A stretch of DNA of 64,000 nucleotides from contig JABYQQ010000024.1 in assembly GCA_022605405.1 (NCBI GenBank), positions 1-64,000 of the forward strand. Reading direction: 5' to 3'. The stretch is from Earliella scabrosa (Eukaryota > Basidiomycota > Agaricomycetes > Polyporales > Polyporaceae). The translations under genes were made by a program, and so were the position numbers. Shown piece by piece: positions 12,602 through 38,539 of the stretch (within the stretch, counting starts at the first letter, position 1; each line of letters begins with the position of its first letter). The notes under the pieces were generated by a model. It searched no databases, had not been told where the DNA came from, and saw only the letters and a program-made list of their open reading frames with translations.

Positions 12602-15600
12602 TTATGCTACATCGTCCTCCACCGCCGGTCGTCCATCCCACACCGCCAGAGTGCGAATTTTGTCCTCGGTGAGACCCAGTTGAGCCAGGTAGGCCTTCAC
12701 CCCTGCTTCGATGACAGTCTCTTCTCGAGCCTCCAACCGTTCGATACGAGCCCGCAGATCCGCAAGGACGACTGCAACCTCCTCGTATGGCGCCATGGAG
12801 GGGCCAACTGGCGGGGTATCGCCGTCCACAGCCTCGGTGTTGTTCTCCAATGCCGCGACCCGGGTTCGTAGGTATATCACCTCGTGCGCGAGCGTCGACC
12901 TGTCGTGCCCAAGGGGACCTGTAGTATGCTTGAGTAAAGACTGTGCAATCTCCACCAATGCAGTCGTGCACTTGTGGACGAGGTCCTTGAGTGGCTCTAC
13001 GATGTCGTGAGGGATGGATGGACTCTGTGCCAGCACGTCGACGAGGGCATCTAGGGGCTCCTTGATATGTCGACCCACGCTGCGAATATCATCGCTGATG
13101 CGATTCAAAACAGTATCGGCAATGTGTTGCATAGTTCCGGTGCACTCGTGCTGGTGTGTGTCGAGTTGTGTGTTGATGACATTGACGTCAAGAGAGGTCC
13201 GATGAAGTTGATCGCGATACCACAGAACCGCTGTCTGCAACTCGTGGATACCGTCCCAGGTGGTCTTGTACAGATCCCGCAGTCCGTCAAGGGTGGACAG
13301 CATATCTCTGAGAGTTTCTGAGTGGACTGAGAGCATAGGCATGCCGCGCAGCGCAAGGACAACCGCCTGGATGCCTTCCCCCGTCTTCGCAAGGAACGTG
13401 ATGACTTTGGCCAGGTCACCAGCGACCTTCGGCTCTAGGAGGTCAAGGCGCGCGCCTGTACTCGCTGGACGGTCGTCCGGCATTCTGGCAAGCAGCGATT
13501 CTGCAAGACCAATAACGGCGCTTCCCTCCTTCGCAAGCTCTGTAGCCAGCATGATCGCTCTGTTCAGGTCTTCAGATATGTCGGAAATAGGCGCGGAGAC
13601 ATCCGAAGCGCTCGCAAATACTCGAGGAGGCGGAGAGATATATCGTGTTGTGAAGATTGCTCCAGAGGTTTGAATGACTGGTGGCGAGGAGGTATCTGAG
13701 ATAGATAAGGGGCTGGCAGTGAGCTCTTGAGGAGAAATGTCGTTCACCGGAACAGCAGATCGATCTAACGGCTGGGGCGGATTACAAGACGCTTGGCGTT
13801 GGTGAGCAAGCAATTACTACCGGAATTTCGCAGATGGAACATACCGGGACACACAGGAACGTGACATTTTGGACAGCAGGAATCAGATATGAGAGACGTA
13901 GCTAGATCTGACGAGGGTGCCTGACTCTGTACGCTCTTGACTGTGCCAGGTCGTAGGTCGAGAACGGAGCCATCGACGCGATAATGCATGACCTGACGAG
14001 CTCCCTCGGAATGGGACTGTCCGGACGTTCCTCGCTCAACGTCATCAACTTCCATGGGCTGGAAATCAACGGAGACGTCCGTCGGACGCCCCGCGAAGGG
14101 AGAACTGGAGTAGTGTTTTTGGCGCTTCCGCCTTCGCTCGCAAGCATCCTGCGTTCCAGCGTTGGTTGCGGATTGATGCCCGTCGTCAATGATTTCCTCC
14201 TGAACTTTAGCTTGAGCCTTGTCCTTCTTCGAAGACAAGCGGGAGTGCCCCGCCCTCTTGCGTCGCCGCTTCCTCTCACTTGGAACATCCATCTGAAAGT
14301 CGGCTGGCAGCGCCGGCTGATGGTCGGTCCGGTGCTCGCGCTCGAGGACGGCTTGTAATACGGGGCGGAGTTCGACCTGGCACTTGGTTTGAGGAGAGGG
14401 ACTGGCCTGGTCTGGCTCTGAACTCTGCCTCTGTGACAGGCGGGTTTGGTAGAGAGCTTTCTGAGCTGCGATAGTTGTTGATGAAGGGGGTGGAGGGTGC
14501 ACTTTCCTCCCTTGTGGCGTGTGGTGAGGGTCGTAGAATTGCAAGAACCACGTGGGTACGCAGTCGGGGTCGTCGAGGTTGAGGTGGTCGGGGAGGAGAT
14601 CTAGATCGTTGTCAGTGTAACGGTCTGGTTGCATGGATATCTTCCAGAACCGCCAACTGAGATAACCGGCGAGGGCCGATCTTTGTCTGAAAGTCGCGCT
14701 GCAGCCGACCTTCCTGTCGTGACAGTCCAGGCACGCCGTGTTGAAAGTGGGCGCGAAGAAGCAGTCTCTTCCACGCTTCTTGCACTGGGCACAAGGAACA
14801 GGCTAGTGTATTAATCATAAGTGTGATTCCGTCCCGAGGGTGCGATCTAAGTCTCCACGTACCGACCACATCCACTGGAAGGGAATATACTCTGGAGGAA
14901 AATCCTCCTCATGTGGGACATAACCAGAGCTGTTCGGGTCTGGAAATGATACGAGGTCGGCAGGGATTGGGGTATCACCCAGAGAGGCTACGGACGGAGA
15001 CGCGGACGCCGAATAGGGGGATCGGGTGCATGCGCTTCCGGGAGCACCCGCTGCGCTCAACGGCGAAACGGTGCATGCATCAGGGTAACGGTCTTCGGTA
15101 GGTCTCAATCCCATCCCAGGCTCCTGACCTTCCGGGGCCGGCACCGGAGACGGCGGTGTCTGCTGGCCATCTTGGTGCTGCCTCGCAAAGCTTTCCCCTG
15201 AGCACGAGGAAGTGCAATCCACGGTAAGGTGTGTCTCATTCTTCTGCAATCTGGTCTGCGTAGTGTTGTCTTCCTCGGCTTGGCCTGTATCAGCCGTGTG
15301 AGCTTCATCATTGGGGGCGGGGGGCGGATTGTGGGTTGGCGAGCCGCGAGTCTCCAACTCGGGGTCGGCTTGGACGTTGAGAGCGGAATTGATGACACCC
15401 GAGCGCTCTATTGGTAGACTATGGGATCTTTCAATTTGAGGCGAATGCGCGGTATCCAACTCGGCGAGGTATTGATCGTTGGATGACGGTGGCGCTTCAG
15501 GTGGGGATAGGTGTTCAGATAGATCTGTAACGGTAACTTCGGCCTGGGGGTTGACTTTGAAACCCTGCGCAGATAGCGTCGGACGTTTCCCCTGAGAAGG

Positions 15601-16068
15601 CGTCGAGCAGTGGAGTGTCTCTGTGATAACTTGGGATCAGCGAACGGTGATGAGAGGCCAAGAGGTATCCTGACCTGGGCTAACCCACCAGATATTCGCG
15701 ACGCGGTCTATAGGTAGGTAATGGACTGGACCATCCTCCTTCGCGACCAGGATGAGGTTCTTCCGTGGCCCTGGACTAATCTCCTCCGCGTCGAAGGGCT
15801 CTCCAGCGCGAAGAGCAACGTTGTACTGGTGAATCACGCCAATGATGAACGCTGGGACTTCGATAAACCAAGCGACGTCAAAGAGACGAACGATCTTGAC
15901 GACCACCTTGTAGAACCGGCGATTCCACTTGGTGCGTTGAGGGTCGGTGACAGAGGGCCGAGCGTGGTACGCGTAGTAGATCTCGCTACAGAGCTGTCGC
16001 ATGTCGGCGAATTGCTCTTCAGTGGGTGGGGGATGCTGGTTGCCATGGGTCACAGACGTAGATGGCAT
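12602..16068 (-). CDS. Z1: Zn2Cys6-spaced cysteine-cluster protein with helical C-terminus
   Basis: Four exons (16068-15675, 15620-14863, 14802-13855, 13771-12602) join in phase to give 1089 aa. Layout: an N-terminal folded domain (about residues 1-130, ending in an ANIWW motif), a disordered acidic/Pro/Ser stretch, then at residues 388-418 the cluster C-x2-C-x6-C-x9-C-x2-C-x6-C, the spacing of fungal Zn2Cys6 DNA-binding domains, followed by a Trp-rich piece (GYLSWRFWKI). A basic disordered linker with KRRRKR follows. The last 350 or so residues are long amphipathic helices, probably coiled coil (ALENNTEAV, RIERLEAREE). Z2 on the opposite strand is a paralogue with the same order of parts. 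A nuclear DNA- or chromatin-associated role is inferred from the cluster and basic segments only; the family has no name known to me. Confidence 0.8.
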
Positions 16069-17347
16069 GCTAATAGTGGGTGCGTCGCGCGCGATACGAG
16101 TAGCAGATACCAGTGAGGCGAAGAAGTCGAACGATGACTTTACACCGTTGAACTTCGGGTCGCACGTCGTGCGAAGCGCCGGTGAGATGGCGATGGGATC
16201 TGCCAGGAAGATCGTCAATCTGGCGTAGATTGTTTGTTCCCGCCAAATAGTGCCTTATTCGGGAGGATCGACGCCGACTCGGCCGTCCTGAAGGCCTGAC
16301 AGCCTGTACAGGCCTGTACCCCCGTTTTCGAAGGCGCGCTAGAATGCTTGCGACCTGGCTTGCGCTCTCAGCCTCTCACTGCAGCCTCTCGAGATCGGAC
16401 CTCTCTGCGTCTCCACGAGTTAGGTGAACACGTTAAAATCATTATGGTTCATCACGGAACATGTTGGACATGGAGTCGTTGTCGGGAGTGGCTACGAACA
16501 TGGCAGAACTTGGACCGTCCCTGTGAACACGCGTTTTCTAGCGCTTCCCCTTGTTCTTACTAGTACTACATTAGACTTGCGCGAGGCTTTGCAGCGCTAC
16601 ATATTATACAAGCACGCCAGGGCTGGTTCATGTCACACATGGTGGCGCCAATATATATAAGGGTTGCTCACCACCCGGACGTGACAGTGGCGCATGTCTG
16701 CTGTTCAACCGGCTCCGCCCGGGCGCCCACAATGGCCACAACTCCTGCCCCGGCCGGCCCTCCCCCCACAAATGCCCTCTAGGCAGTCCTAGGTGCCGGC
16801 TCAGCTATGGTCCTCTGGTTTCAAACCTTACAGTCAAAGTGTGTAGTACATATGACATAGGTATCCAGTCAATTAGAACGTATTCCAAACCCATTGTTGC
16901 CTGCCCGGTCTGTCCAGCTAGCCCACCATCCAGCTTCTGCTTCACAGTGGACGCAGTGAGCTTTGTCTCTACCTGTGAACACTTCTCATCCCCCTGATGG
17001 CCTGTCATTGTTACTGCATGCTCCTAGGGAGACTCACTGCGAGTTGTATTCCAATAGTGGCTCCCGACGCTGGTCTGTATTGAGAGACCTCAATCAGCAT
17101 ATGGTGGTGCTGTCGACCTGGTGCTGTGGGAGGCCACTGTATACCGTTACTGCCACTCACGCCGGCTGGTATACTCAGTCTCATCAAACAAAGCTGGCTG
17201 GCCGGGCGTGTCATACTTACGTGAAGGCCCAGATCTACTCCAGCAGCCACACTGCCCCGCTCGCGATCCCCTGCACCGTTCGAGCCATTTTGTCAGATCA
17301 TACTTACTAATAACAAACTCGGGCTACTAGTACATCCAGGGACCATG
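16069..17347. other. intergenic between Z1 and Y1
   Basis: No gene seen. This stretch separates the 5' side of Z1 from the 3' end of Y1 and contains GGCCGGCC-rich patches. A short sequence GTCAATTAGAACGT (about 16868) recurs as GTCGATTAGAACGT near 33407, the only similarity I noticed between the two flanks of the KDZ block. Confidence 0.4.
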
Positions 17348-18586
17348 TCATAACTCTTCGTCATCGCCAGTCTCTCCTTCCCCGTTCCCGGCCTGCGCAA
17401 AGAGCATTCGGTTATAGTCCAACCAATGCCTTGCCGCGTTCTGCGCACGCATCCCAACTGTCCGGCCGAGAGCACGTCGGAGCTCCACGAGTGAGTTCCT
17501 TTCGTCAACAAGCTCGGCTAGCATCGTGCGCGAGTGGCTGAGAGCCTGGAGGGTGTGATCGCGCGCCCCCTCGGCTGCTGTGTGTTTCGAGACGAGCGGG
17601 GACAGCCGCGGATTGTCGACTGGGGACGGAGATCGCTCGCTGTTGAGCTCGGAAAATGACAGCTTCCGGGCGGCACGAGCATCTCCCATTCCTGTCGCTG
17701 ACGGTCGGTCGGCTCGTGGGGTCCACTCTCCAACGGGCCCGGGACTCGGCAAGCCCGCAAAGCGGTCGATTTGCGGGCTGGACACCTGGAAGGCGCGGTC
17801 GAGCGTATCCCGAGCCGATGTGCTTCCGCCCCCGTCCATCGGCGACGGAGATCGCTCGCGCTCGCTGTTGAGCAGGGCGAACACCAGCTTTTGAGCGGGT
17901 CGAGCATCCCTCACTCCCGTTGCCAATGGTCGGTCGGCTCGTGGAGTCCACTCTCCGACGGGCCCTGGAGTTGGCAAGTCCGCGAGGCGGTCGGGAGTGC
18001 GAGGGCGATCCCCATCCCCTGCAAGTCGTCTCGGCGGAGTTGTAGCAGCGCGGGCCGGCTCGAACCCGCCCTCAGCCTCGCCCACTGGCCCCAATGGAGG
18101 TGATGCGGCTAGCGAGCTGTTGCGCGGGATGGTCGTCGGCAACCGCGCCGGCGCGGTTTGTGCTCGACCGCCTGCAGGCCGAGACGCACGCTGCGCGTCG
18201 CGCGTCAGCTCCATGCGAGACAGGTCGTCCGCGCATTCCAGGGTGGGACTATGCTCGAGACCGGCGTCCTGCCTCTGCTCGCCGACAGGCACAGTCGGTG
18301 ACAAAAAAACCGGGGTCGGGGAGTGGATGCGCACGCGCCGCGATCGCAATGGACCCGTCTCATTTGCGTCCTCGATGTTGTCGACCTCTGATTAGACGCG
18401 ATGAGAAAGTTGCTGAAGTACATTCTAAGACGCGTCCTCACCTATCCGCTCGGCAGATGTCGACCGGCCGTGGCCGCTGCGAGTGCGAGTGCGTTTGCGA
18501 GGAACCTTGGGCTGCTATCGGCATCAGAAGACTCCTTTGAGTCAAGGTCGGTCCGAGCTCCAGAGAACACGCACCTTGTTGGACAT
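17348..18586 (-). CDS. Y1: basic/Pro-Ser-rich protein with C-terminal helix
   Basis: Three exons (18586-18575, 18511-18442, 18387-17348) join in phase to give 373 aa starting MSNKPKVPRKRTRTRS. The tiny 12-bp first exon and a basic, nuclear-localisation-like N-terminus are followed by a long disordered region with two copies of a block around PGPVGEWTPRADRP. A helical C-terminal 80 residues (LRRALGRTVGMRA ... WLDYNRMLFAQ) ends in an acidic tail. Y2 at 35205-36810 shares the basic start, internal block duplication and a matching SWESYNRIL C-terminus, so the two form a family. Y1 is divergent from Z2 with 155 bp between start codons, suggesting a shared promoter. Function unknown. Confidence 0.7.
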
Positions 18587-18741
18587 GGTTTGGGTTCAGA
18601 GGCCGCCGCGAGCTCGTGCGGGCCCGCCGTCCGCGATCTCCGAACGAGCGCCGCAAATTTTGCGTCGGGCGCCTAATCCGAAATCCGGCTTTCAACATTC
18701 CCCTTCACTCACCTGCAAACGAGTCCCTGCACCACTGAACG

Positions 18742-21700
18742 ATGGCATCCCGAGACAGCAGCATCCCCACCTCGAGCCGAGATCCACCTACCGCTCAGCT
18801 CATTGCTGATGCCTCGGATTTTGTCAGCCAGATTCATTACTCTCACGCCCAACGCCCACCGGCTGGTTCTTCGGCTCGACAAAGCTGGGATCTCCATTTC
18901 ACACAATGCTGCAAGAATCTTGCGAAGATCCTCGCCCTTGCCGCATTCGACGAGCTTCCCGCATTCGCGATCGGCACGATCTGGGAGTATAATAAATTGT
19001 ACTACTCCCGGACGGCCGTGGTCGATGCGGAAGCAATTCGCCCCGCTGAAGATGAGAGGCACCCTGCCCTGGACCCGTCGAACCACCGCCGCTTGCGTTA
19101 CCGACCCAACGAGCGCGGCATCGTCCGGGTGCTGCCGCAGGAGGAGATGAGAAATGTTTGGTGGGAGCGCGAAGTTGAGGGTGCGTCATCCCCGCTCGTC
19201 CTCTCGGACCTTCACGCTCAGCTGCGCTTAGCCTCGGATGAGCGCGACAGCGCGATGGAGCCACAAGATGAGCCCGGACCGTCCAGGCGAGAGGAGGAAT
19301 ACGAGTCGTCGTCCGGAGAACCCGAGGTCGATGCGGCTGACATCGAAAAACCCGAGCTCCACGCGGCCGACATCGAAGAACCCGAGGTCGACACGGCCGA
19401 CATCGAAGAACCCGAGGTCGACGCGGCCGACATCGAAGAACCCGAGGTCGACGCGGCCGACATCGAAGAACCCGAGGTCGACGCGGCCGACATCGATGAA
19501 GACGAGGTCGATGCGGCCGACATCGATGAAGACGAGGTCGACGAACTCGACGAAGACGACCCCATGTCTGAACCCGCTCGCGGGCGCAAACGCGCCCGCA
19601 GTGACCTCTCATCGCAGTCCGAGGGCCGCTCTCGATCGCGCCGACGACGCTCTACGCCGCCGGCCGCCGGTTCAGAGACCCCGGCAGTGGCCGAGGAGGA
19701 CACTTTGTATCTCCCGATGGAATCATTCCCCCCAGTGGTGCCCATCGTAAGTGCTCTATCGTGCTGATTCTGCGGGCTCTAAGTTGCGAGCCGCATTTCC
19801 GACAGGCGGCGGGCTACGGATGCGAGAGCTGCCGGAAGGCGCGGACCGTCTGCGAGGTTAACCTCACCACAGGGCAGACATGCACGCGTTGTAAGCAGTC
19901 CAAGATCCGCTGCTCGTTCCGACAGGTCGCGTCGAAGCCGCTTCGCACATACTTGATGTGGCGGATCTGGAAGCTCGGCGAACGCGGTCACAGCGCATGC
20001 CGTTTCCTCCCCGCGCATTTCAAGTTGCCGGGGGCGGCACCCCCGGATTGGTGGATCGACTTGACCGTGGAGAAGCCCGCGTCGACATCCACCGGCAAGA
20101 GCGCGGCGTCTCGCCACCGCGCTCGCTCCGTCGGCCTCACGTCGTCCCGGCGGCGATCCAAGACACCGGCAACGCGACCTGTCGCCGCCAGTCGTAGATC
20201 GCGGGCGCGCTCGCAATCTGCATCGTCCGACCGGGCCGCCGTCGCCGTGCACCCATCCGCAAGAGCCGATGCCGGAGATTCGTCGCCACCATCTGGCGAA
20301 GACGACTCGGTCAAGCAGCTGCCGGTCCGCCAAACGCGCAGCCGCAAGGGCAAGGAGCGCGAGGTCCCGCGTCCGCCCAGCGACGAGAGCACTGCGTCGC
20401 ACCTGCTAGCGGCAATGCGCATTTCATCGCGGACTGCAAGTCCGCCCCCTCCACGCTCCGAACCAACGCCACCAGCAGCCCCCGCGCCTCCCAGCACCCA
20501 GCTGCAGGAGTCCTCGTCTTCCGAAGGCACTGCACCGGCGTTGGAAGAGCCCCGCCTGCAGGGTCGCATCGTGCGCCGAGTTCGTACGGGGCGACCTCAA
20601 TTACTCATCCATTCCGAGGGCCTGACACAAAGTCCGAAGCCGCCGCCGGCAGAGGACATTGAAGGGCAGCTCTCGGCGGCCACAGCTGCCGGGGACGGGA
20701 CCGGAATCGAGGCGATGGACGGGAATGCGCGGCAGGTTCTCCGCGTTCCGACAGTGGACGGTAGGGCGATATTCCTCCCATTTCTATCCGCGCAACTGAC
20801 GTGCTCATTCCCGCAGATTCATGGCGCAGTCTCCCGGCCCTTGACGCCACGTCGTCGGACACTATGCTCGAGGTATCTGGCCTCGACTACATGTTCGCGC
20901 CGCCGGCTAACTATGTCATGCCTCGGAACTGGCAGGCCCTCGCCCGCGCCGCTGCTCGTCCGGACCCGATGGTCAACGCCGCCGTTTGGTCCCGCGATCC
21001 ACCGCCCGTCCCTGGCACAGCGTTCCGCATCGGTCCTGCGACATCCCGCAGCCTGGAGCATCTTCGCGACCAATTGCGCCGCCTGGACCACCTCCGTCCC
21101 ACATTCCAGAATGCAGCCGCTGAAGCCGAACAGCTCGCCCGGCATATCCATAACGCTCGACTCGCTGCTTCCACGCAGATCGCAGAGACCGAGGACCCCG
21201 ACGCCGCAATTCGCATCCTGCTGACGGAACATGAGGAACTTGCTGCCCAAAGCCGGCGCTGTGCGCAACTCATTGCAGACGTCGCGACATCGCTTTCCGC
21301 GGTTACTGAGGCGTTCGGCCAGCTTCCGGCAATTCCTGTCGATGGCCGCGCAGTTGCGGAGCTGCAAGACCTGGTCCACCAGCTGCGCGCCCTCTACGGC
21401 GAGACTTGGCAGCGCTTCGATGCCCTCCGGGAAGACATTCGCCCGGTGCGCGAGGAGCTCCATCGTCTGCGCGTCGACTACCAGCAAGCCATCGAGATGG
21501 TCGAGCAAGTTCCAGCCGCCGCTGCGGAGTCCGTGCAACCGGTGGTTGACCGGCTCTACGACCGAGTTTCCAAGGGGATCGAGCAAATCGGCGACAGTGT
21601 CCGGAAGTCCCTCGGACAGCTCGCACAGGCACTCGATGATGTCACGTTGCACGCGGAGGACAGGGTTCGCCTTGTCAACGCTCTTTGGAAACCGCTGTCC

Positions 21701-22153
21701 GACGCAATGACCGAAGCGGGCCAGATTCGCGGCACGTTTCCTCGTCCGTCATCTCCTCCGGCGCGGCTCTCCGATCTCATCGCTCGCCTCGAGAGGGTGG
21801 AGGCCGAACTCAAGCCCAATTCCCCTCCCCTCCAGCTCGCCGTCGATGACCTCGTTCAGCGCGTGCGGCGATTGGAGCTTGCCTCCACTGGTCATCAGCC
21901 CGAGGATGCCCAGGGCAGTGAGCCGCGACCGAGAGACATCGCCGCTGCTCTGGCTCATCTTCGAAGCCGTGTCGAGCATCTGGAAGAACATCCCGCCGGT
22001 GAGTCCATAGACGGGCGTCGGGCGGATGTTCGGGATTATCTACGCGAGTTCGGACTCGGGCCCGAGGAGCTGACTCGGCTCGGGCGATCGACCATCGCAC
22101 GCGGCACGCAGTTCACCTTCCCCGGTCACGATTTCGGCATGTCGCATTCATAA
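18742..22153 (+). CDS. Z2: Zn2Cys6-spaced cysteine-cluster protein with helical C-terminus
   Basis: Three exons (18742-19746, 19806-20760, 20817-22153) join in phase to give 1098 aa. The N-terminal domain (about residues 1-150) ends in a MRNVWW motif that matches ANIWW of Z1. Next comes an acidic decapeptide-repeat tract (about residues 190-275), then a cysteine cluster at residues 341-371 with C-x2-C-x6-C-x9-C-x2-C-x6-C spacing and a following YLMWRIWKL segment. A Ser/Pro/Arg-rich linker leads to about 430 residues of heptad-like helix. Z1 has an extra intron before its disordered region that Z2 lacks. Z2 is convergent with W, with 109 bp between their stops. The Zn2Cys6 spacing suggests zinc-dependent DNA binding, but the cluster is internal and the conserved lysine run of classical regulators is weak, so this is inference. 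Confidence 0.8.
19321..19545 (+). repeat. in-frame 30-bp tandem repeat in Z2
   Basis: Seven head-to-tail 30-bp units plus a partial unit encode the acidic decapeptide PEVDAADIEE and variants (late units DEVDAADIDE). Because the unit is a multiple of three, copy-number change keeps the frame. Third-position differences between units show that the array is not brand new. Confidence 0.95.
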
Positions 22154-22262
22154 TTCGGACTCTCTATGTAATATACCGTGTCATTGTTACTCCGTCGTTC
22201 GAATGAATGGGAGACAGCCTGCAGTTGCCTCCGCTTACACCAAGTCCGTATCCGCGCAGCGT

Positions 22263-25200
22263 CTACCTGCGACCTCCGCGCGATGACCGAGTCTGGCGCC
22301 CGCCTTTGGCCGGTGGAGGCTGGCCGACTCGTCCCGCATCGTCTCGCCCGTCTTGCTCATTAGTCGGCACTGGAACGCGACTGCGAGTGCGCCGCCCGAT
22401 GCCCTCAGTCGCCATGTCCGCGGCTGCGGTCGCCGCTGTGACTGTCTCACTTCGAGCGCGTTTCCGACTGTTGCGCGTCGGACGAGATGGTCCCGGCTCT
22501 CCTTCATTCAATGTCGGTAGATCCTTCGCAGGCTGCGCAGTACGCGACGACCCTGATTCCGCGTGCTCGTCCTTCTGTTTCGAGGATTTCGAGCGCGCAG
22601 CCGGTGGGTTCCCCGCCAGCACGTCCGCGGGGTTCCCCGAGTTATCCGACGCCGCGGTCGCCCCCGGCTCTGCTCCGGTGCGGGCGCGGAGTGGGCGCGC
22701 GGCAGGAGGACGATGCTTGACTGAAGTGCAGACTTCCAACAGCTCTTCCTGAAGCTGGAAGTCCATCGTCGAAGTCGCGAAGAAGGACGGCAGATCCGCG
22801 GGAAGGTCGTCCGGATCTTCAATCGTCTGCACACGCATGAGGTCCCGCAGGAGGAGACCCATGGTGAGACAATAGCGTTGGGCCACCTCCGCCGATGTCG
22901 GCCTTTGCGGGCCGGCTTTCAACCATTCCACTACACGGCCGAGGGCACCCGACTGCTCGTGAAGTGTCCTCGGGAGATGGGAGGATGACATCGACCAAGT
23001 CGCAAACTTCACAGGGTCTCTTCCAGTGACCTTGACGTCTTGAATCAACTGCACAAAGACTGTCAATACGCGAACCGGGCTGCGAGCGTGCCGACACTCA
23101 CCAACGGATGAAGCCGGTCGAGCATCTCGCGGAACGCGTTCTGCTCGCTCAACGCATGGAGGAACTGGAAACGAGCGTCACCGGTGTTTGCAACGCCGCC
23201 AGGGCAGGTGGGCATGGGTGTATGCGAGGACTTCGCCTTCTCCTTTCCTTTCGCCCGCCTCCGTGAGCTAGTGGGTTGCGGAGGGAGCTCCGGGTCGGGC
23301 TGCAGCTGCGAGGTTGAGGCGGATAGCCTCGGGCTTGGCTCGCGGTCGCCTCTCCGGCCACCTATCGTGCTCTTTGACCGCGATGGTGGGGCGCGTTCGA
23401 AGCCCATGTGTAGGTCGCGGGTCTCGGTTGCATCGTCTTCTGCGTCGGCTTCGTCTTCGTCGGACGGCGTGCCCGCTATCGTGGACTCTACGGCGGCAAG
23501 ATCTTCGTCCAGGTCCTCGTCCTCAAGTCCATCGCCATCGTCTGAAGACGAGCCGTCGCCTTGGAGCTCCTTCCATCCCTCGTCGTCGGAGTCCGACGCC
23601 TCGGACTTGCTCCACTCCGCCTCCGCCTCCTCCTCCACGCGTTTCTTCTTCTTACCCTTGCCACCGGCCTTCGCTGCACGCTTACCATTCCCTCCAGCCG
23701 CCCGAACCGCCTTCTTCGCCTTCCCCAGCTCGCGGGTATACTCCTGAGTCGCCTTCTCTAGGCGCGTGAGGGCAGCTCGCTTGTCCGAACGCCCCCGCCC
23801 ACTCCGCGCGTTCGCTGCACGCCTCGCAATGTCTTCGATGTCCGACGCGTCAACATCGGGACCGTAATCGTAACTGCGCGCGTTGTCGTCCGCGGGACTC
23901 TTGGCCGGCTTCACCGCCGAGGGCTGTGGGTTCCGGTAGACCGCGTCCTGGATGGTCGCATGGTCTCCCGTCCCGTCGCGATACGCAGACAAACGGAACC
24001 GACGAGGTTCCTCGTCAAGGCCATGGGCAGCGGGGTTCTCCATCCTGACGACGTGATCCAGAAAGAGCTGAAGGTGTTCGGCCGGCATGTGCTCAGGGTC
24101 GTACAGTAGAACACCCTCAGGGAGCATTCCAGGAGCGAAAAACTTGTCGGGTTGCTCCTTGAAGAGTGCCCACGGCTGACGGCGGAGTGACTCCTTGCCA
24201 CCGGCCCACTCTAGAAGATTCTCAGCGTCACACAGCGCGGTTGTACCGGTTATTGACTCACGGTGGTGTATGGACATGTACTCCCGAATGATGGCCTTGC
24301 ATGTCTTGGTGGACAGGGAGTTGCCCTGAGCGTCGCGATTGAAAAGTATGGGCGTTCCGTCGTCATACCTCTCGAAGACGATGTTGGGCTTGGAGCTCTT
24401 CTTTTTCAGCGTCTCGTGCAGCTCGGTGGTCTTCTCGGTACTCTTCGCGGGATTGATGATACCGGGGAAGAACGCCCAGAAGTTCTCGCGGAACTCGGCA
24501 TCCCAGCTCTTCATGTCTCGAAACAGCGGCACCTCGGGGTTTTGCTTATGCAGCATCTGCGACACGTCGTAGCTGGGGCTTGTCAGTATCAAGGCTCAAG
24601 GCGAGGTGTGGATAGACAACTCACACGACCCCTCGAAACTCGCCCTCTTTGTCCTCAAAGAGACCGTACATGAACAAAGCGACCTTGCATTGGTCCCAGA
24701 ACATCTCGCAAACCGCGCGCATCCAGGATAACGCGCGCCGTTCGGCGATTCTGCAACACAGTGGGGTCATTAGTTTCAGCGGATTCGGGAATTGCATATG
24801 GTCACTAACTCGGGTTTGTACTCGTCGTCGGGACCGACTTCATTGAACTTGTGGCACAATGCTATCCACTTCTTGCGCGCTTCGTCGCTGAGGTTCTCCC
24901 ACATGCGCGTCCATGTCTCATTCCATATCTGATGTAGCATGGGTCGGACTCGGAGGTGTCTGCAATTCGCGACGGAATGAACGTACCTTGATGTAGTGAT
25001 CCGATGTCTCCTCCACCTCCTCTGCTACCGCCGCCTTGATCTTCTCGGCTTCCGCAAGCGCGAATACTCGCTTCGGCGTGTAGTGCTGTACAATTCTCCT
25101 GGGCAACCGAGTCTTCTTCCCTTGCCGGCTGTTCTGCAAAAAGTTCGTGACTTTCTGCGGATGAAGCGGTCAACAGCGTCAATATCTTGAGAGAGCCTGA

Positions 25201-25431
25201 GTGTGGGAGGACTCGCAGCCGCTGGACGCAGGACGGCCATCTCACCTTGAAGATACAAATTTCGGCGTACTTGTCATCTTCGCGCAGGTTGCGCATCGTC
25301 ATCAGATGTCTAGTCATCCGAAGACGATAGGCCTCCTTGTCTCCATGGGGAGTCTGACGATACGAGTACAAGTGCTCCTCGAGATACGTCTTTTCAGCCT
25401 TGGTGAGAAACGAAGGATCTTGGACCGGCAT
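22263..25431 (-). CDS. W: large unknown protein head-to-head with the TET/JBP gene
   Basis: Six exons (25431-25246, 25154-24987, 24928-24810, 24750-24625, 24572-23102, 23048-22263) join with all phases correct, giving 951 aa starting MPVQDPSFLTKAEKTYLEEH. The N-terminal third is folded and Trp/aromatic-rich; the segment WENLSDEARKKWIALCHKFN has the look of an HMG-box-like helix, but I would not call the domain. The middle third is a basic (GKRAAKAGGKGKKKKR) then strongly acidic low-complexity tract. Near the C-terminus is a conserved-looking helical piece (GALGRVVEWLKAG) followed by a disordered Lys/Arg-rich tail. Similar architectures occur in unnamed mushroom proteins, by memory. The divergent arrangement with the dioxygenase, 307 bp apart, suggests co-regulation and a role in the same element (inference). 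Confidence 0.75.
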
Positions 25432-25738
25432 TGGAATGTTAAGTTGAGAGGATTTATCAGGACTGGGACGGCAGGGCCGTAGAGATGGAGTAGCTTGAAG
25501 GTCATGATGCAGCACGCTGGATTTTTATTGCGTTCCTGTACTCCATCGCACTGACTCAACGTGCAGACCGACCTAAGTCGAACAGATTGACGCCAGGGCG
25601 TATGCCCACATTGGGTAATGATCAATGCAGTGCCTCAGATAGCCTCATGGCCGCCTCGTGTGCAACCTCGCAGAACACGATTGTACTGCGCTCTTGCTCG
25701 CACAACGACCCGTCCTTACCTATCTGCTCACACTCCCA
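25432..25738. promoter_or_regulatory. putative bidirectional promoter between W and TET/JBP
   Basis: This 307-bp gap separates the start codons of two divergent genes and is the only room for both promoters. I see no clear TATA box in either direction. Confidence 0.4.
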
Positions 25739-27054
25739 ATGTCGAACCCCGGCGAGAAGCGCGAGATGATCGCCCACTTCATATGCAAGTTGTATGAATA
25801 CTACTTACACGTTCAGACCGCCGCAACTGCGGGCAGCGAGACGATGGTGGCCCTCCCCGATCCGCCCATCAATATCAGCACCATTCTGGTCGAAGAAAGT
25901 CATGCGGTGGCGGCCCAACTGGCACGCGCAGTGCGGAACAAATGTGCGATATGCTGGGTAATCTGATTTCAACCAACATCCGGAACTAACGAATTTCCAG
26001 ACGTGGTCACCTGGAAGGCCGACGAGTATGCGGCGGCCCTCAAAAAAACCGCCGTAGGCTCCAAAGACTACGAGGACAATCTCCTGCGCAAGTTCCCGCC
26101 GCTAGGAGATGTCAACGACGTTTTGAGAGGAGAACTCCCGTTGAAGACCGTCCGAAAGTCTGCTGTATTTGCAGATTGCGAAGACAATCTCCTCGCGTGG
26201 AGTCTGCCCGGAATTCTCTCCGGGCGCATTCAGGTACGCCCCATCGCAGGTTACAGTTCGATCGTCCCGCTGACACCAGCCCCAGAATATCCTCATGCGT
26301 TCCACTCTGATGATCGAGAGTCATCTCACCCGCGACCGCAACGCCGGAAGTGCCGCCGACGTCAGAGGTTGGCGCAAGGCGGCGCGTTTCTTCGCGCCGG
26401 ATGGTGCGATCACGCCTGGCCAGGTGTTTTTGGGCCCTGCTTGGTTTCCTCCAGGACACGGGGTGAGTCCGCCAAGCCGCGAGACAGTGCTTGCATTGAT
26501 TTCCCGTGCCGCAGCCTCCTAGATATCCCATCATCGTCCTCTCCCCGACCAGATCCCCGGAGGCTCGGGATTGGATGGAGAGTATGCAGGAGGTCGGTGG
26601 CATCTTGGACGGCATTCTCGCGGTCGCGCATCCCGAGCAATACGAAGCCGGCCGGGAAGTCTTCCGCCGCTTGTACGCGGACGATCCTGCGAGTCGTCGG
26701 ATTGCGGACCAGTGGCCCTCCGTCATGCATGCCCTGCATGTAATCGCGAATCGGGAGAGCATATACCATCGGGACACCAACGGGCGGCCGCAGTGGTATG
26801 ACCTCTTGGCGACTGTGGGCACGTACGGCGAGACGGGCGTGTTATCGATGCGCACTCTCGGAGTGAGCGTGCCGTACGATTCGGGCTCGGTCGGGCTAGT
26901 CTGCAGTCGGGTAGTCTCGCACGGGGTGCCTGCGGTGGTCCCCGACCGAGTCTGCTATGCATGGTTGATGCGGGAGGACGTGCTCGCGAGCCTCGGCGTG
27001 AGCGCGCCGGGCTGGTCGCAGGGGGGCCGGCGGGTGAACCGGTTTGATTCGTAG
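25739..27054 (+). CDS. TET/JBP-family 2-oxoglutarate/Fe(II) dioxygenase
   Basis: Four exons (25739-25943, 26001-26233, 26286-26462, 26515-27054) give 384 aa. TET/JBP enzymes oxidise 5-methylcytosine (or thymine in JBP) in DNA using 2-oxoglutarate, O2 and Fe(II). The catalytic double-stranded beta-helix lies in the last exon: the HxD iron-binding motif is H290-x-D292 in YHRDTNGRPQWYDLL, the distal iron ligand is H341 in SRVVSHGVP, and R350 in DRVCYAWLMR fits the 2-oxoglutarate-binding arginine. Upstream, LLAWSLPGILSGRIQ matches the W-x-LPG-x-LS segment I associate with fungal TETs. The first intron needs a GTGCGA donor at 25944 to keep phase; the better-looking GTAATC at 25958 would not. The gene is 111 bp upstream of the transposase on the same strand. 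It appears complete. Confidence 0.85.
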
Positions 27055-27165
27055 CACTCTGTATCCAACTCTCTCGTCAACATCCTCCATCTCTACGTCG
27101 TGCGCTCGCCCGAAATCGACCCTGTCCTCCTCGCCGCATTCTACTCTCTAGTCAACGCGCCGATA

Positions 27166-30100
27166 ATGGTTGGGCATCGAGGGCCGAAGCCTCAAGGCCG
27201 CTTCAAGGAGCTAACCGCCGATGTGCGCGAAACGCGCCGAGGCACTCAGACAGTCGTCAAGCGAGTGCGCACGGAATACGTTCAAGACTCCCGGTCGGGT
27301 CTCCCGACACCTCCTCCTGCTCATCGTGCCGGCGATCAGACGATGCAGGGACCAAGTCAGTTTGCGGACGACCGATTCAACGAAATCCGAGCGCCGTCGG
27401 AGACCCCACGGAAAGGCAAGGTGAGCGGGTTTCGCGAGTCTCATGGTGGGCTCGGGTCGAACGGCATCGACAGTCTCAGAATGACTACCAACGCGAATTC
27501 CTCACGGTTCGCGACAAGTACCTCGCCATCGACCTTGAGCGCGAATCGCCGCCCTCTTCCGGAGTCGGAAGCTGCGGACATCCCGCGGTTTGGCGCTGCG
27601 TCACCTGCATTCGGACGCCATCGTATTGCACAGCCTGTCTCAGGAGCAGCCACGAGTTCCTGCCGCTTCACCGCGTCCAGTTCTGGGAGGGGTCGTACTT
27701 TCGGAACGCATGGCTACGGCAAGTCGGAGTCCGGATCCACTGCGGGCACGGCGGACTATCCTGCCCGAACCCAGATGCCGACGACGGTTGCCCCGCGGGC
27801 CAACAGTCCGCAGACCTCGCTGCATGGGACGATGACACTCTCCTCGATGAAGAGGAGGTTCCCGGTGAGAGCCTGTTCTTTGTCGAGGAAGAGTTGGGTG
27901 ACCTGGAGGACGAGGACGGGGAGGTCGACGTTTTGCTGGTTGATGAGGATGGAGAACCCGACGGCGTGGCGATCGCAGACCTTCCGGACTTTGAGCGGCA
28001 TGACACACACCTTCCCGCCGCGGGAAACATTGTCGGGTCGGACCGGATGGTTTGCGTCGTGGATATCAACGGTGTGCACGAGCTGCCGATTGTGTTCTGC
28101 CGATGTGCGAACGCCGAACGAGACGATATCCAGCTCCTACGGCTCGGCTTGTATCCCGCGTCCATACACCGGCCTCGAACTGCATTCACCATCCGCGTCC
28201 TCGACGACTTCCTTCTCGAGAACCGCGAGTGCCATACATCGGCACGAAACTATTTCAATAAACTCCGCAGGACGACCAACGCGGCCTTCCCCCACATTGT
28301 TCCGGTAGGTCGCTCCGCCTCGCTTCGATGGCCCGAGCTGACAGACGTTGCAGGATCGCTACAAAGAGCTGTTGCGGCTCTCCCGCCAATGGCGCAACCT
28401 GCAGATGCGGAAGCGTGCCGGCTTTGGCCATCGTACCGACCCGATCAAGCCGGGAGACCTCGCGATAAGATGTCCGGCCTGCCCCGATCCCGAACTCAAT
28501 CTGCCGTCCGACTGGCAGGACGATGAGCAGCAGTACGTGCACCCGAACCGGACGACCCTGCCGCGCTGATGTATCATATACTTACAGATGGAAGTATATC
28601 CGCTCGGTCGTCCTCGACGGTAATTTCTCCGCGCAGCACAGGCGCATGAAAAATCCCGAGGATGACGTTGCCTTCGCGGATGGCCATTGCTTCATGGTTG
28701 AAGATGCCCCGTACAAGGCGCATCTGAAGGCGGCAAAGGAGTTCAAGGAGGTGCGAGGCTCACCCAGCACTGCGGCGCATGACTGACGCATCCAGTGCAG
28801 GATAACACCTGTAACGATCACCGTGCGGTGTTGACATCGAAAATGGAGCGCGGAAATCTCGAGGCCACCGGAATAGGTGCGGCGGCATGCTCCCGCCACG
28901 GATTCTTCAGTCCGCATACCTGCGTGGACTTTGATAAAGGAGAGGGGTGCGTCACGGACTCCGCTGCCTCCTCGCGTTGCGCCCTCCGACTGACTCATGA
29001 CCGGCCAGTCAACGGCACATGGATTACGCGACCAATTGGGTCTTGGCCTTCCTGAACGGGATTGCGACGGTGCTCCTTCTCTACGACATAATGTGCCAGT
29101 ACTGCGTCCGTTTGCGCGACCGGTTTGAGCAGAGCCCACACCTACACTGGCCCCCGGGAATAAAGCTCCTGCGGGGCATCGGTCAGTTTCATGTACACGG
29201 TCATCTTCCGCGATGCTTCGCCCGATATTCAGCAAACTTCATCAAATTTATCGGCGTGCAGGACGGGGAGATTTTGGAGACCCTCTGGGCCCGTTTGAAC
29301 GAGATCGCGGGGAGCACGCGCGGAATGTCGTCGGCACATCGGCGGGAGGTAATCGACGATCATATGAACGACTCTAATTGGATGAAATTGACGCGAATGG
29401 GTGAGTGGATCGATGGATGAGTGGTGCGGCTACTAAACGACGCACAGTCCATGCGCTCAGTCGGAAATGGCGCCGGGTTTGCAAGGAGCTGCGTCCAGCC
29501 GTGGAGGCTTTCGATCTTCTAACCCGAGCGGCCGGCCCCGAACTCGTAGCGACATGGACCGCCGATGCCGAGGCAGCGGATGCCACTCGCGACGAAAACA
29601 TCGAAGCCATGGATATTTATGACATACATAAGAAGCCTCGTGAGTCGAAATGATAATGGCCCCGGAAGACAGCCGCTAACTGACCGAAGTCCCGACGCGG
29701 AAGGACGTACAAGCACTCCTGGTCGAAGAGGAGATGCTCGAGGCTCCCGATCAGGGCAGCAGTGCTGCTGAGTGGATTTCCGACGGCCTCCGTGTCGAAC
29801 AGAGAAAGTACGTACACTCTATGTCCAATGAACTCCGACCTAACGGTGCCCGTGCAGGCTGACTGTCGCATTCGCCGCCCGTACACTCAACTTGTCGACG
29901 GATGGCAAGAACCGGCTCAGCCTCGCCCAGCAAAGGCAGAAGCTGACCGCGGCCATCGCGTCGTTCCATCGCGCAGCGCAGGAGCACCTTCCCTCCGGAC
30001 TCTTCGGGGCCTCGCTCGGCCTCTCTGTCGATCCGACCGACCTCGGGGCTGAATGGGACGCTTTCGGTGAAAGCGAAGCCGACGCCGCGGAAACTGCCCC

Positions 30101-30939
30101 GGACGACGATGTGCTTGCCCCGGAACGTCAGGCCATCGCGTTACCATCCACCCTTGGTCTGCTCTTTTTACGAAGTCACGACCTGCTGCATCTCGCCGTG
30201 AAGGAGCGGCAGCTGAGACAAGGGCAGATGAATGATGCGCTCCAGGGGATCCGCACGGCCATCGGGTACAAGTCTCTGTTGTATCGCACCAAGATCCGGA
30301 AGGCACCGTCATATCGTGCGAAGCTGCGAAGCTTTGACGATGTTCACGTTGCGGATGAATCCGTGCGGAAGCACGTACGCATCTACATGCAGGCTCGGAA
30401 GGCGCTGGAAAGACTTTACGATGCAGGGCGGCCTGATGAGGCCGCAGAACGGGATACGCTCATGGCAAAGTACCGTCCGATCCTCAAGACCGACTTGAAG
30501 GTGGAGACCGCAATCATCGAGGCGTTCACCGGCGGGTTGCGAGACAAAGCTTCGGCCTGGTTCTGGCACTTGGAAGATAACGAGGCGGCCAAAGGGAGTG
30601 GATGGATGAGCGGACGTGAGTTGTCTGGCCGTCCGTGTTCTTGCCTTCGGGTGCTGCACCGACTGACTCTCACTGTCACCCTAAGTGCGACGGATGCTCT
30701 GGCTGCGCGCGTATGCCCGCAAGCAGCGATGGGAGGAAGAGGAAATTATTGTCCGGTTTGAGATGGACTGTACCGAGCGGTTCTTCCGTCGGTATGCCGA
30801 CAGATGGCGAACTTGGGGTGGCAGCGGGCTCTCGGTCGGTCACGCTTGCTATGCGGCGAAACAGCGGGGGATGTGGCTGGGCCTTGCAGATCATGCATCC
30901 CGGTCTTTCTCGCATGTTCTGGCTGTCGTTAAACCGTAG
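27166..30939 (+). CDS. KDZ (Kyakuja-Dileera-Zisupton) transposase, CxC2 type
   Basis: Ten exons (27166-27420, 27474-28304, 28354-28532, 28588-28750, 28801-28946, 29009-29400, 29448-29639, 29690-29807, 29858-30615, 30686-30939) splice with every phase matching, giving 1095 aa. An N-terminal Cys/His cluster (C119, C127, C130, C137, C140, H151, C175, C182) fits the CxC2-like KDZ-associated domain. The DDE-type catalytic core follows: D432 in VVLDGNFSAQH, D551 in LLYDIMCQYC, and E612 or E615 in QDGEILETLWARLN, with the hallmark PHLHWPPGIKLL and FHVHGH stretch between. Long helices follow, ending VVKP-stop. It excises and inserts the element through the terminal repeats. No stop or frameshift was found, so it may be functional. 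Confidence 0.9.
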
Positions 30940-31011
30940 ATTTATCCTGTACATGTACGGACGCTGTCTTGCGAAAGTCAATCCCAGCAAACCCAACCAA
31001 TGTGACGTCCG

Positions 31012-31019
31012 TGACGTCA
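31012..31019. promoter_or_regulatory. TGACGTCA palindrome upstream of P1
   Basis: A perfect TGACGTCA (CRE-type bZIP site) lies about 65 bp before the P1 start codon, immediately preceded by TGACGTCCG, giving one and a half sites in a row. Binding is inferred from the sequence only. Confidence 0.4.
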
Positions 31020-31083
31020 CAATGGCACCGCAAAGCCGAACCCGATCAGCGAATGTCTTCGCCAATACCCTCCACCACACGAA

Positions 31084-31804
31084 ATGCCGAGACGCGGTCG
31101 GATCCTCGCGGCCGCTCGACTGGAGCTTCTGCTCATCACTTGGCGCGTCGGACAGGCGCTCCGATGCCTGGAGGATGTCCCCGATCGTATGACGGAGATG
31201 CGATGGAACCACGGCATCGCACGGGAAATGGTAAGTAAGACTCCGACGCTGCCGAACCACTCTGACACTGCAGCGGCAGTGGTTTGCAATTGAAGGCATG
31301 GGCATTGCAGCAGCCGTCGGCGGTAGTCTGGCGCGGGCCGAACCCGGAACCGGAAACGAGCCTCTAGCAAGCCTGCTCGCTCACGCGTCGTGGAACAGTG
31401 ATCTCAGCCTGACGTTCAACCTAGCCACATTCAACAGGCCGGCCTTTCTGGCCGTAGTGAAATCGGACGTACCCGAGCTGGACAGATTGGATGCGGCGCG
31501 AGGCCAGGAGCGGTGGTGGACTTGGGCGGGCGACCCGATCGACGATGCACCCCGCCCGACTTGGTGGCATGTCCCGGTCGCATTCGTCGTGAGTATCCGT
31601 CTCCCTCCTGTTGATTTCAGCCTGACGGAACCACTGCAGCCGCGGCCCGTCGCCATGCATACGTCCGACCTGGCGGACATGCATCGTCAAGCAATGCACC
31701 TGGCAGGAGAGTTGGATAGAATCGTATTATCGAAGGCACGCATGACGGAAACACTTACCGAGCACGTAGCAGAGCTGGAGCGGGATCTGTACGCTGTTGC
31801 ATAG
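31084..31804 (+). CDS. P1: small unknown protein, paralogue of P2
   Basis: Three exons (31084-31230, 31280-31588, 31640-31804) give 206 aa starting MPRRGRILAAARLELLLITW. P2 at 37535-38316 has the same intron positions and shared landmarks: a helical start with a x-L-L-I-T-W-R-x or I-V-V-V-W-R-I core, NHGIAREM or KHGIGREL at the first exon end, ERWWTW or ARWWTW followed by a second Trp pair, and a final exon beginning PRPxxxHxSDL. The Trp-rich WW motif recalls the N-terminal domains of Z1 and Z2, but similarity there is too weak to call. P1 lies 144 bp downstream of the transposase stop on the same strand. Function unknown. Confidence 0.75.
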
Positions 31805-34800
31805 TGTCTGATTGGAATACTGGGCTTGCCGGACCGAACCTCAACTGCCTCCCGGAGACCTGTGCTCCGTGCTCGCTGGATAGGATAAGGATCTAGCGTG
31901 CTCTGCATGCCCTGTAGGATGGGAGACCTCAAAGTACCGACCGGCCGAGCGCATCACCAGTGCCCGATCGGTCCGTGAACGAGAGGTCAGTCTGTCTCAT
32001 CCAAGCTAATACGACGGTAATCCCGGGCGGGCGATGCACTAGCCAGCGATATCCGTGCGGTTCCCGTGTGCCACAGCAAGTGCCGAGCGAGCTGTCGCGG
32101 TAGCGGGCATCGGGTGCCCTCCAAACCGGCCGATGGCGGGCAGAGTGCGGGCGGATGTTCGGAATCCAGAGCTAGCCGGGTGCAGGTGCAGGTCATCGTT
32201 AGCGGGATGCGAAAGACGGTGCATGAAGGGAGCTCGCGAGCGACCTAGAGGAAGACGATGCCACAGCGCCGAACGACGGGATGACCGGTCGTTCGGGACG
32301 AGTGCAGTATTCTCGATACGCCGGGGAATTTCTGGGATACTGTTTATCTCAGTGATCGTGCATTGTAGACGACTCCGTGCGGAGTTGATCGCGGAAATCG
32401 GGCGGCTAGGGGTCCGCAACGCGAGGGATCGCGCGAGAGAACGGCGACTGAATGGTGAAGAGAGCTGGACGATGTAGCGGCGAGATTCTCGCGAGGTAGG
32501 CCGGAGGTTGCACAAAATCTAGTACGGCGCACCAAACTGGGCGGTAGTCGCTGCCGCACAGGGCCGAGCACCTGCATGTGCACACGAGCTATGCCGCCGG
32601 GATACCTGCATGTACGCACTTCCCAGGCCGGCCGGAGACTTGCATGGACGCACTTCCCAGGCCGGCCGGGAGACTTGCATGTACGCGGTGCCTGGGCCGG
32701 CCGGATAGTCCACGCAACCTACGCCCGATGCAAGTACAAGGAGGAGGAGCAGATGCGGTTGTGAAGGAGGAGGTGCAGAGGTGGTCATGCGGATATCATG
32801 AGGTGTAGGAGTCGTCGCTCAGTGACGTACGTGGAGAATGAATGCACTTACTGGGGGGCCGGAAAAGCGGAAGCAGGATGGGACGTGACCTGCAGCGGCT
32901 GGATGGTGTCCTATCCCCGTGCATGACCCAACTAGAAGCCCATACACCCAATGGCAATGGACAGAGCCGTATAGATGCGACACAGCCGCAGGAGGAAGGC
33001 GTGGATGGGTGGCTGGGCCAGCCGGGCATTGTCCAAGGCTAGCATCACTGGCCCGGCCGGGCATGGTCGTGTCTTCCAGACATATCAGCAGTAAAACCTT
33101 ACCAGATGCAGGAATTCGCGCAGACAGACATGGTATGCACGGCACATGTGCGGTGCTTGATGATTTTCGAGCAAGGGAGGCTGATATGAGGGAGGTAGCT
33201 TCAGGGACCGGGTGGAGGCCGGCCGGCCCAGGCGCCGTGGACATGGGAGACCGCCGGCCGGGGCCGGGTGACAAGCAAATATCCGGTTCTGTCACATCCG
33301 GTCGAGCACAACATCTGAGTATTGTAAGGCAATGGACTGCATGTCATGGTAGTCATCTGATGTTATGCAGCTACCGTGGCTACGTGTTGAATATGCATCC
33401 TACCACGTCGATTAGAACGTCATGAAGAACTCGTTCGCCTCCCGATCCTCATAGAGCACCATGAGCGTCGGATGTCCCCGGGACTGGCCAAACGCCGACA
33501 GTGCCCGACCTGCGCCTGAGCCCGACATCAGCTCTCTTGTGATCAGCTCTCTTGTGCGTATCCGGAATGCAGCAAGCAGACGAGACGTGCCTATGTTATG
33601 GGAATTTGCCGGCGTGAGCTAGTGGAACTGATGTATGCACCACCGGAGTGCTTGCCTTTGTACGTAGCTCTGCCGAACGACCTATATGCCGACACCACCA
33701 GGAATCCCTGACGGTCGGACTAGTTGACGATTAGCAATCAGGTGGGACGACGCTGGACGCCAGCAGGAATGGCGAGGAGGTAGTACCGGCGGCACCACTC
33801 TTGGCCAACGCTTTCGATACAAGAAGCCGCCGAAGGGGAAGCTGGCGCCGCCAGTGTTGCTCCACCCGTGGTCGTATAGAGTGTGCAAATGCGACTTCTT
33901 CGCTCACGGCGGGGGATGCAGCATTGATGCTGGGTTGTGATTGGGATACAGCCTTCTTCGCTTTGTTCATCTCCTGCGTGCGGTGGATCGAGTGGCTGTG
34001 CTCCGGAAGAGGAGGGACAGCCTTCGCTGCGGTAATCCCTACCTCGAATGCGGTGATGCGTGGCAGCGGTCTTGACGGCTGTGAGAAGGAGGGAGTTTGC
34101 AGAAGCAGGCGTAGGCGTCGGCAATGAGCTTGTACGGGATCTGTGACGCAGGCCATGTGGCGATGGATAAGAAAATTCACGTTTAGGCGTTGGGGAGCGA
34201 AGGGAGCACAGTGTCGGTCTGCCCGGAGCGGCCAAATAGGCGAGGCGCAAATGTGCATGGAGATGGGGTGGGGTTTGATAGGCAGAGAGAAGAGGAAAAC
34301 TCACCTCGTGATGTCAATACCCAGTGCACCCCGAGCGTGCCGATGAAGTTGCCCAGCTCCGCGGCGACGGACACCTAACCACAATGGCGGAGAAGTCAGA
34401 TCGCTTGCATGAGAGAGCACCCGCGTTGCAGTAAACAATGGACGGACCTCAGTCGTTGAAGTGAAGAGCGGCCCCTCTGCAAGGAATTGAGGACGAGCGG
34501 ATGGGGAAGGGGAATGAACGTACCCCCTCCAAAGAAGCGCAGCTGTTCGTGTGGACATCGCGAGCGCATTTGAGTGCGACAAGAGACTTCTGACAGCGCG
34601 CATGACGAGAAGCCTCTCTCCGAGACAGGTATGGGCACGTCCGAAGGGCATCGTGCGCTGGGCGTATGCGCAGTCGTGTGGTAGGCGAAGTCGACGATAC
34701 GCACAACACCCTTGGAATACAAGTCAACAACGGCGCGCAGAACGCGGGTATGGACATACCAATGAGTCGACCCGATAGCCACGATGGAGTGAGGGGAGAC

Positions 34801-35204: not shown

Positions 35205-36810
35205 ATGGCAGCTCGGAGGCGCGGTCATAAACACGCCAAAGCCGAAGCGGGTGAGTACAGGTTAACCGCAGCTTGCTGGCTTCAAGTTGTAACCGCCGTT
35301 GACCAACGCGGACGCACCCCAACCGGCCCTATCAAAAACGGCGCCAACGTCGGTAGGACCTAGTTCAACAACCCAGGCACCTCTCACTATACGGTTGCCT
35401 GCTAGAGCGCATTCCGTCGCCGGTGCGTCTGCCCGGTTTTCACAGGCCTGCGCCTCAAATCTTGCCAATTGGCTGTACTCGCTGACGTAGCGCACTTCCG
35501 TAGTCCGCTCCAAGCACACAAAGACAGTGCGGTTGCTGCTGGCCAGCGAGAAGATGGCCTGTGCGGAGAGTCCACAGCTGGAGCCCGGTTTAGGCTCAGA
35601 TGGCGTGGCCGCGAACTTCCAGAACATCGTCGACCGGTCGCTCTCGGGAGTCCCGTTTCCTCTGTCCCCAAGATCTATCAAGCGACAACGAACGCGGATC
35701 CGGAACGTCTTGAAGCGAAGTGGCAACCCATGTCCGACTTGGGCGAACGTCTCAGAAAAAGTGCTAGTTGACCTTGGGATAAGGAGCCCTGACGGCGGGG
35801 TTCGTGCAAGTACCCCAACGGAAAATCTCCCAGATCTCCCCCAGAGTTGGAGAATCACACCTCCACGACACATGCCCGGAACCTCCGTCCGCGACTTGGA
35901 GCCCGGCTTAGAGCTAGGTCGTCTCAACGATGGAGGAGCCGGGCGTGGAGCGAGGGTTCAAGTGTGTAACGACTCCGACTCCGACGGATCGTCAGTTGGG
36001 TACCTACCTCCTCCGGTGAGGGAGAGAGCCTCGTCCAACGATGGCGGCGGGGTACGGCCGGCGATGGTGGTAAGCGACGTCAAGGATGCATCCGCCGAGG
36101 AGAACCCCACCGCTCTGCGTGCTTCGCAATCGCTCAGGGGGGTCGAGCTAGCCCCTTCACGAATGCCCATTCCCTACTCGCCTCTTGCCCCTGACACCGA
36201 CGTACTATCAATCAACTTGGCTGCAGCTAGAGATCGTCTACGACTTGTGCAGAGTCATGCACAGGCTCCCCCTGGATCCTCCGTCCGCCACCAGTTGGAG
36301 CCTGGCTTAGAGCTACGTACTCTAAACCATGGCGTTACCGGGCGTGGAGCCAAGGCTCAAGTGTGTAACGACTCCGACTCCGACGGATCGTCAGTTGGTT
36401 ACCTACCTCCTCCGGTGAGGGAGAGAGCCTCGTCCGACGATGGCGGCGGGGTACGGCCGGCGATGGTGGTAAGCGACGTCAAGGATGCATCCGCCGAGGA
36501 GAACCCCACCGCTCTGCGTGCTTCGCAATCGCTCAGGGGGGTCGAGCTAGCCCCTTCACGAATGCCCATTCCCTACCCGCCTCTTTCCCCTGCCACCGAC
36601 GTACTATCAATCGACTTGGCTGCAGCTAGAGATCGTCTACGACTTGTGCAGAGTCATGCTGTAGCCCTCAGACAGGCGCAGAGCTTGCTGGCGGGTTCAG
36701 TAGAGTCTCGTCTAGAGTCGGCACCTCAAAGTTGGGAATCCTACAACCGAATCCTGAGCGTACGAGGACGCCTGGTAGTAGATGCGTGGAATGATAATGG
36801 GGAAGAATAG
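35205..36810 (+). CDS. Y2: paralogue of Y1 with internal duplication
   Basis: A first exon starts MAARRRGHKHAKAEA at 35205 and ends at a GTGAGT donor, parallel to the basic start of Y1. Between it and the main coding block the exon structure is not resolved (coding-like pieces lie at 35290-35490). The main block is open from about 35527 to the stop at 36808-36810. It contains three QLEPGL-type segments and two nearly identical 133-residue blocks with VCNDSDSDGSSVGYLPPPV. The C-terminus SWESYNRILSVRG aligns with WLDYNRMLFAQAG of Y1. The product is mostly disordered, acidic and Pro/Ser-rich with a short helical tail. P2 follows 724 bp downstream in the same orientation, so a Y-P pair exists here without transposase. 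Function unknown. Confidence 0.6.
35876..36660 (+). repeat. 399-bp in-frame tandem duplication in Y2
   Basis: GACTCCGACTCCGACGGATC occurs at 35971 and 36370, exactly 399 bp (133 codons) apart, and most of the surrounding block is repeated with very few differences. The near identity points to a recent duplication. Confidence 0.9.
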
Positions 36811-38316: not shown

Positions 38317-38539
38317 TATCTAGGTAGTAGCATAATTGGGTCAGGGTCGTGTCCAAACTCCATCCTGTTGTCAAGTTGGCACTGAGCAGCTCCCGTCTGT
38401 CATGTCGTGCAGCATGACCCAACCTTGACGGGGCCCGCGACGGACCGAATCGGGGACATGGGGGATAGGGGATGCAAAGCGAGGAGCAGTTGACCATACG
38501 AGGTGAAAATGTTCAGAGAACCTGTCACAACATCGCGCC

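Follow-up and report, generated by a model that had tools for sequence, protein, structure and literature searches.

A six-gene, TET-bearing KDZ transposon in Earliella scabrosa

Gene content and organization

The window analysed here spans the initial 64 kb of contig C24 in the Earliella scabrosa genome and was compared with that genome as a whole (51.7 Mb, 48 contigs). It contains a block of six closely spaced genes, designated Y, Z, W, TET, KDZ and P (Table 1), that lies within a mobile element present elsewhere in the same genome; the window element is referred to as copy A, a second copy on C24 as A2 and the others by their contigs (C11, C19 and C9). Gene models were produced with a custom gene finder in regions set by hand and guided by codon conservation relative to two diverged copies, after which the Y, Z and W models were simplified by hand while preserving the long open frames. 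The new models match to the base all five intergenic gaps (∼155, 109, 307, 111 and 144 bp) reported in a preliminary description of the locus.

The KDZ transposase scores 158.7 bits against PF18758 (cut-off 26.6) and the W model is identical to the public protein C8Q76DRAFT_802566. The TET residues H290, D292 and D301 (the Asp337 equivalent) are invariant in all three of A, C11 and C9, with the position equivalent to 331 occupied by Gly in A, Ser in C11 and Ala in C9. Fungal zinc clusters of the Zn2Cys6 type follow the pattern C-x2-C-x6-C-x5-12-C-x2-C-x6-8-C; the six-cysteine motif of Z is present in all eight Z sequences examined and its spacing fits this pattern in each. Since the Pfam Zn_clus score of Z (11.8 bits) is under the curated cut-off of 21, Z is described here as Zn2Cys6-like. 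Z also contains a 30-bp coding repeat (window 19317–19543, 7.6 copies), of which A2 has one unit fewer, so that the repeat is variable between copies.

The models of all six genes are free of stops in A, C11 and C9. The ratio of nonsynonymous to synonymous substitution rates (dN/dS) is 0.06–0.30 across the genes; for KDZ, the corresponding ratio of proportions (pN/pS, 0.13–0.14) is given because dS is saturated. By these sequence measures, all six genes are under purifying selection.

Table 1. Features of the window (strand as given;. denotes no strand)
Feature	Position	Strand	Description
Complete mobile element, copy A	16636..33339	+	16,704 bp; ends from C21 empty site and copy A2, same in C11/C9
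Left target-site duplication CATGTCA	16629..16635	.	Single occurrence in C21 empty site
Right target-site duplication CATGTCA	33340..33346	.	Flank comparison with C21 empty site
Left terminal region	16636..16765	+	Starts CA; 80–81% identical to C11/C9; imperfectly inverted relative to right end
Right terminal region	33219..33339	-	Ends TG; 86–88% identical to C11/C9
Motif CCGG[AG][CT][GT]TGAC	16675..16685	+	Base 40 from left end in A, C11, C9; candidate binding site
Inverted partner of CCGG[AG][CT][GT]TGAC	33291..33301	-	Bases 49–39 from right end in A, C11, C9
Y	17348..18586	-	371-residue model; low-complexity middle, conserved C-terminus; no Pfam match for main open reading frame
Z	18742..22153	+	Gene between Y and W
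Z six-cysteine motif C-x2-C-x6-C-x9-C-x2-C-x6-C	19821..19913	+	Zn2Cys6-like
W	22263..25431	-	934 residues; no Pfam family; homologue in Ganoderma leucocontextum
TET	25739..27054	+	384-residue TET/JBP dioxygenase, CcTET relative; Pfam PF12851, PDB 7vpn E 9e-28
TET iron-binding residues H290, D292, H341	26767..26922 (first to last)	+	Alignment to CcTET; roles per Kojima (2025)
KDZ transposase	27166..30939	+	1068 residues, CxC2 cluster and KDZ domain, class I; PF18758 E 2.2e-46, PF18803 E 1.3e-24
P	31084..31804	+	206 residues; no Pfam family; low-confidence helical model
Z1 (label of preliminary description)	12602..16068	-	
'Y2' open frame of relic	35491..36810	+	Matches C4 gene occupying Y's position, not Y
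P2	37562..38307	+	Part of relic with 'Y2'

Boundaries and copies

The proposal in the preliminary description that the six genes form one mobile unit is upheld by ends at 16636 and 33339 that enclose the entire Y-Z-W-TET-KDZ-P block and are shared by A, A2, C11 and C9. The target-site duplication and the empty site that it had suggested looking for were both found, the latter on C21 of the same genome, where the base preceding 16636 is directly joined to 33340, CATGTCA is single and the flanks of A lie on both sides. Copy A2 (C24:81150–97823) matches the window element from end to end with three mismatches and one 30-bp gap, but is without a target-site duplication. Its flanks (450 bp each) are 100% identical to C21 and lie 21.2 kb apart there (C21:142140–163355); A2 in place of this C21 DNA is possibly a transposon-associated deletion.

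Two diverged copies, C11:632159–647985 (15,827 bp) and C9:1717003–1732958 (15,956 bp), are 67 and 64% identical to A, respectively, over all aligned columns and ∼70% identical in collinear blocks, which span A from its first base to its last, with the terminal 121–130 bp at 80–88%. The C9 copy has its own 7-bp duplication (ATCACCA). The C19 copy (C19:266381–295467) is 99.8–99.9% identical to C11 in the compared stretches. Neither C11 nor C19 is flanked by a duplication of its own, but the seven bases to the left of each are those found to the right of the other (TGCAATG and CGGTAAG), and this crosswise pairing gives two more 7-bp duplications; the pattern reflects either an exchange (translocation-like recombination) between these near-identical copies or a mis-join in the assembly. 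Inside Z, the C19 copy carries a 13.3-kb insertion (C19:268921–282176), possibly a long terminal repeat element, which has TG...CA ends and a duplication of 4 bp.

We conclude that window 16636–33339 is very probably a DNA transposon of the TET-bearing KDZ (Kyakuja) type that is apparently autonomous and has been active recently, with Y, Z, W, TET, KDZ and P as its unit.

Terminal sequences

All five copies (A, A2, C11, C19 and C9) start with CA and end with TG. No perfect terminal inverted repeat, of the kind that the preliminary description had suggested looking for, is present at the ends of A, C11 or C9, but the terminal ∼130 bp show imperfect inverted similarity. Alignment of the first 130 bp with the inverted last 130 bp scores 111 in A, 97 in C11 and 99 in C9, compared with means of 47–50 and a maximum of 76 for shuffles (0/500 reach the real score in each of the three copies).

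The terminal 270 bp contain 11–13 CCGG tetranucleotides, compared with 1.7–2.3 expected from the interior (0/2000 draws reach the count in each of the three copies). The longer motif in Table 1, a pattern derived from these very ends, occurs once per orientation in each of A, C11 and C9. These subterminal CCGG-rich, CpG-containing motifs are plausible binding sites. CpG depletion is absent in the element copies; silencing, if any, has thus left no mutational scar.

Linkage of the partner genes

A, A2, C11 and C9 all have the same gene order; an element on C4 preserves the window's order and orientation for five genes, namely Z, W, TET, KDZ and P. Y, Z and P are retained with two KDZ transposase lineages (class I and class II), and Z and P were found again next to TET at diverged loci. 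Outside the relic described below, neither Z nor W was detected away from TET. The linkage of partner genes to KDZ put forward in the preliminary description is supported to this extent; of the 18 P loci outside the A family, five are not within 12 kb of TET, two of them being the relic copies in the window and on C21, and Z or P is undetectable at some class I loci. A TET gene at C6:92610 has a P homologue 7.7 kb away and no KDZ match within 35 kb. The occurrence of several partner genes beside a second, very different transposase hints at a transferable anti-silencing kit.

Alternative explanations

The transposon proper might consist of W-TET-KDZ or TET-KDZ alone (22263–30939), with the outer genes as neighbours carried by chance. 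KDZ is the most conserved gene and the published pairing, in the main text of Kojima (2025; PMC12730594), is that of TET with KDZ; however, the four copies share the outer ends, instead of repeats that enclose only 22263–30939 (the finding that the preliminary description had named as contrary to its own reading), and the recurrence of Z and P next to TET points the same way. The common outer ends and the target duplications refute this explanation, to which we assign a negligible probability. Nor do we give any real credence to the idea that a subtelomeric gene cluster was segmentally duplicated without transposition, even though the window is at a contig start, its sequence at ∼38.5–40 kb is common to other contig ends and A and A2 are on the same contig. 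The duplicated segment has a length of exactly 16.7 kb, the C9 and C11 copies have identical ends within different flanks, and the target duplication and the empty site refute such an origin.

It is also improbable that Y, Z, W and P ride along passively or for the benefit of the host, as cargo of the kind carried by Starships, and are dispensable for transposition or anti-silencing. The roles of these genes are predictions, the Z repeat differs between A and A2, and the gaps in linkage noted above (class I loci with Z or P undetectable, and distant P loci including the relics) would suit such cargo; weighing against it are purifying selection on all six genes, the C4 element with five genes arranged as in the window, retention of Y, Z and P with two transposase lineages and the confinement of Z and W to TET loci outside the relic. 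Somewhat more weight, though still short of likely, is given to the two KDZ architectures being a single lineage that diverged vertically, without module exchange: both have Y and Z ahead of TET and a right end terminating in TG, and the trees consist of three groups with no outgroup, P being uninformative.

Proposed mechanism and significance

For the element as a six-gene transposon, we infer the following steps, in order of falling confidence. The KDZ protein would cut at the CA/TG ends and insert with a 7-bp stagger, acting through the inverted subterminal CCGG-rich sites. TET would oxidize methylated cytosine on the element, which would thereby stay expressed and cuttable. Zinc-cluster proteins often recognize CGG triplets, and Z may bind CGG-containing sites close to the ends and bring TET or the transposase there. 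W may act together with the class I transposase, and P and Y could be small helper proteins.

The puzzle of fungal transposon TET genes is how an apparently untargeted oxidase benefits a single element. In E. scabrosa, TET, a relative of DNA-demethylating enzymes, is accompanied by partner genes under constraint, of which one encodes a DNA-binding-like protein, and by CpG-bearing sites clustered at the ends, which makes transposon self-demethylation testable in a system that offers young copies, natural homologues and an empty site. If the partner set does move between transposases, it would represent a modular anti-silencing kit, which is absent from the portions of the literature examined.

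Flanking relic and other window features

The preliminary description had noted flanking paralogues without a transposase. P2 is such a paralogue and belongs to a relic, whereas 'Y2', taken for a paralogue of Y, matches instead the C4 gene in the place of Y; overall, its observations are confirmed in part and its interpretation is supported in part. Two tandem duplications, of two copies each, are present: 399 bp within 'Y2' (35878–36659) and 163 bp (36893–37198), the latter apparently a single unit in C21. Window 38523–40000 is 75–83% identical to sites near the C24 and C26 contig ends, as well as on C20 and C8, and resembles a subtelomeric repeat. A 630-residue open frame at 55783–57675 (minus strand) contains an F-box-like domain (PF12937).

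Comparison with known systems

The Starship giant transposons of Ascomycota resemble the E. scabrosa element in being large, multi-gene and fungal, but have a recombinase of a different family and variable host cargo, in contrast to the constant gene order seen here. KDZ transposons with CxC clusters and TET/JBP genes were reportedly described by Iyer et al. in 2014; the CxC2 cluster on the transposase and the nearby TET gene are shared with these, while complete ends and a six-gene set are established for the E. scabrosa element. The closest solved structures to TET are those of CcTET of Coprinopsis cinerea (PDB 7vpn and 8jkk), with which the iron residues align; CcTET has been studied as a single enzyme, whereas the E. 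scabrosa TET gene is one of six in an element. In Pleurotus ostreatus, according to passages of PMC7641404 and PMC8290104, a CxC2 region precedes all intact KDZ elements, and CxC2 is likewise ahead of KDZ here.

In the main text of Kojima (2025; PMC12730594), two TET-bearing Kyakuja families of Laccaria have 7-bp duplications and CA...TG ends without terminal inverted repeats, Polyporales carry TET-bearing Kyakuja and the TET is of the AG type, with HxD, the Asp337 equivalent and Gly or Ser at position 331; TET is likewise proposed to keep the transposon unsilenced. The sections of it examined here name no Kyakuja partner gene other than TET, and the main text does not mention E. scabrosa. Our element shares with Kyakuja the KDZ transposase, an AG-type TET with HxD and the Asp337 equivalent, the CA...TG ends and the 7-bp duplication, which is found at A, C9 and the crosswise C11/C19 pair and is absent at A2. 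It may differ from the Laccaria families in the imperfect inversion of its terminal ∼130 bp, and the Ala of the C9 copy departs from the Gly or Ser of AG-type TET.
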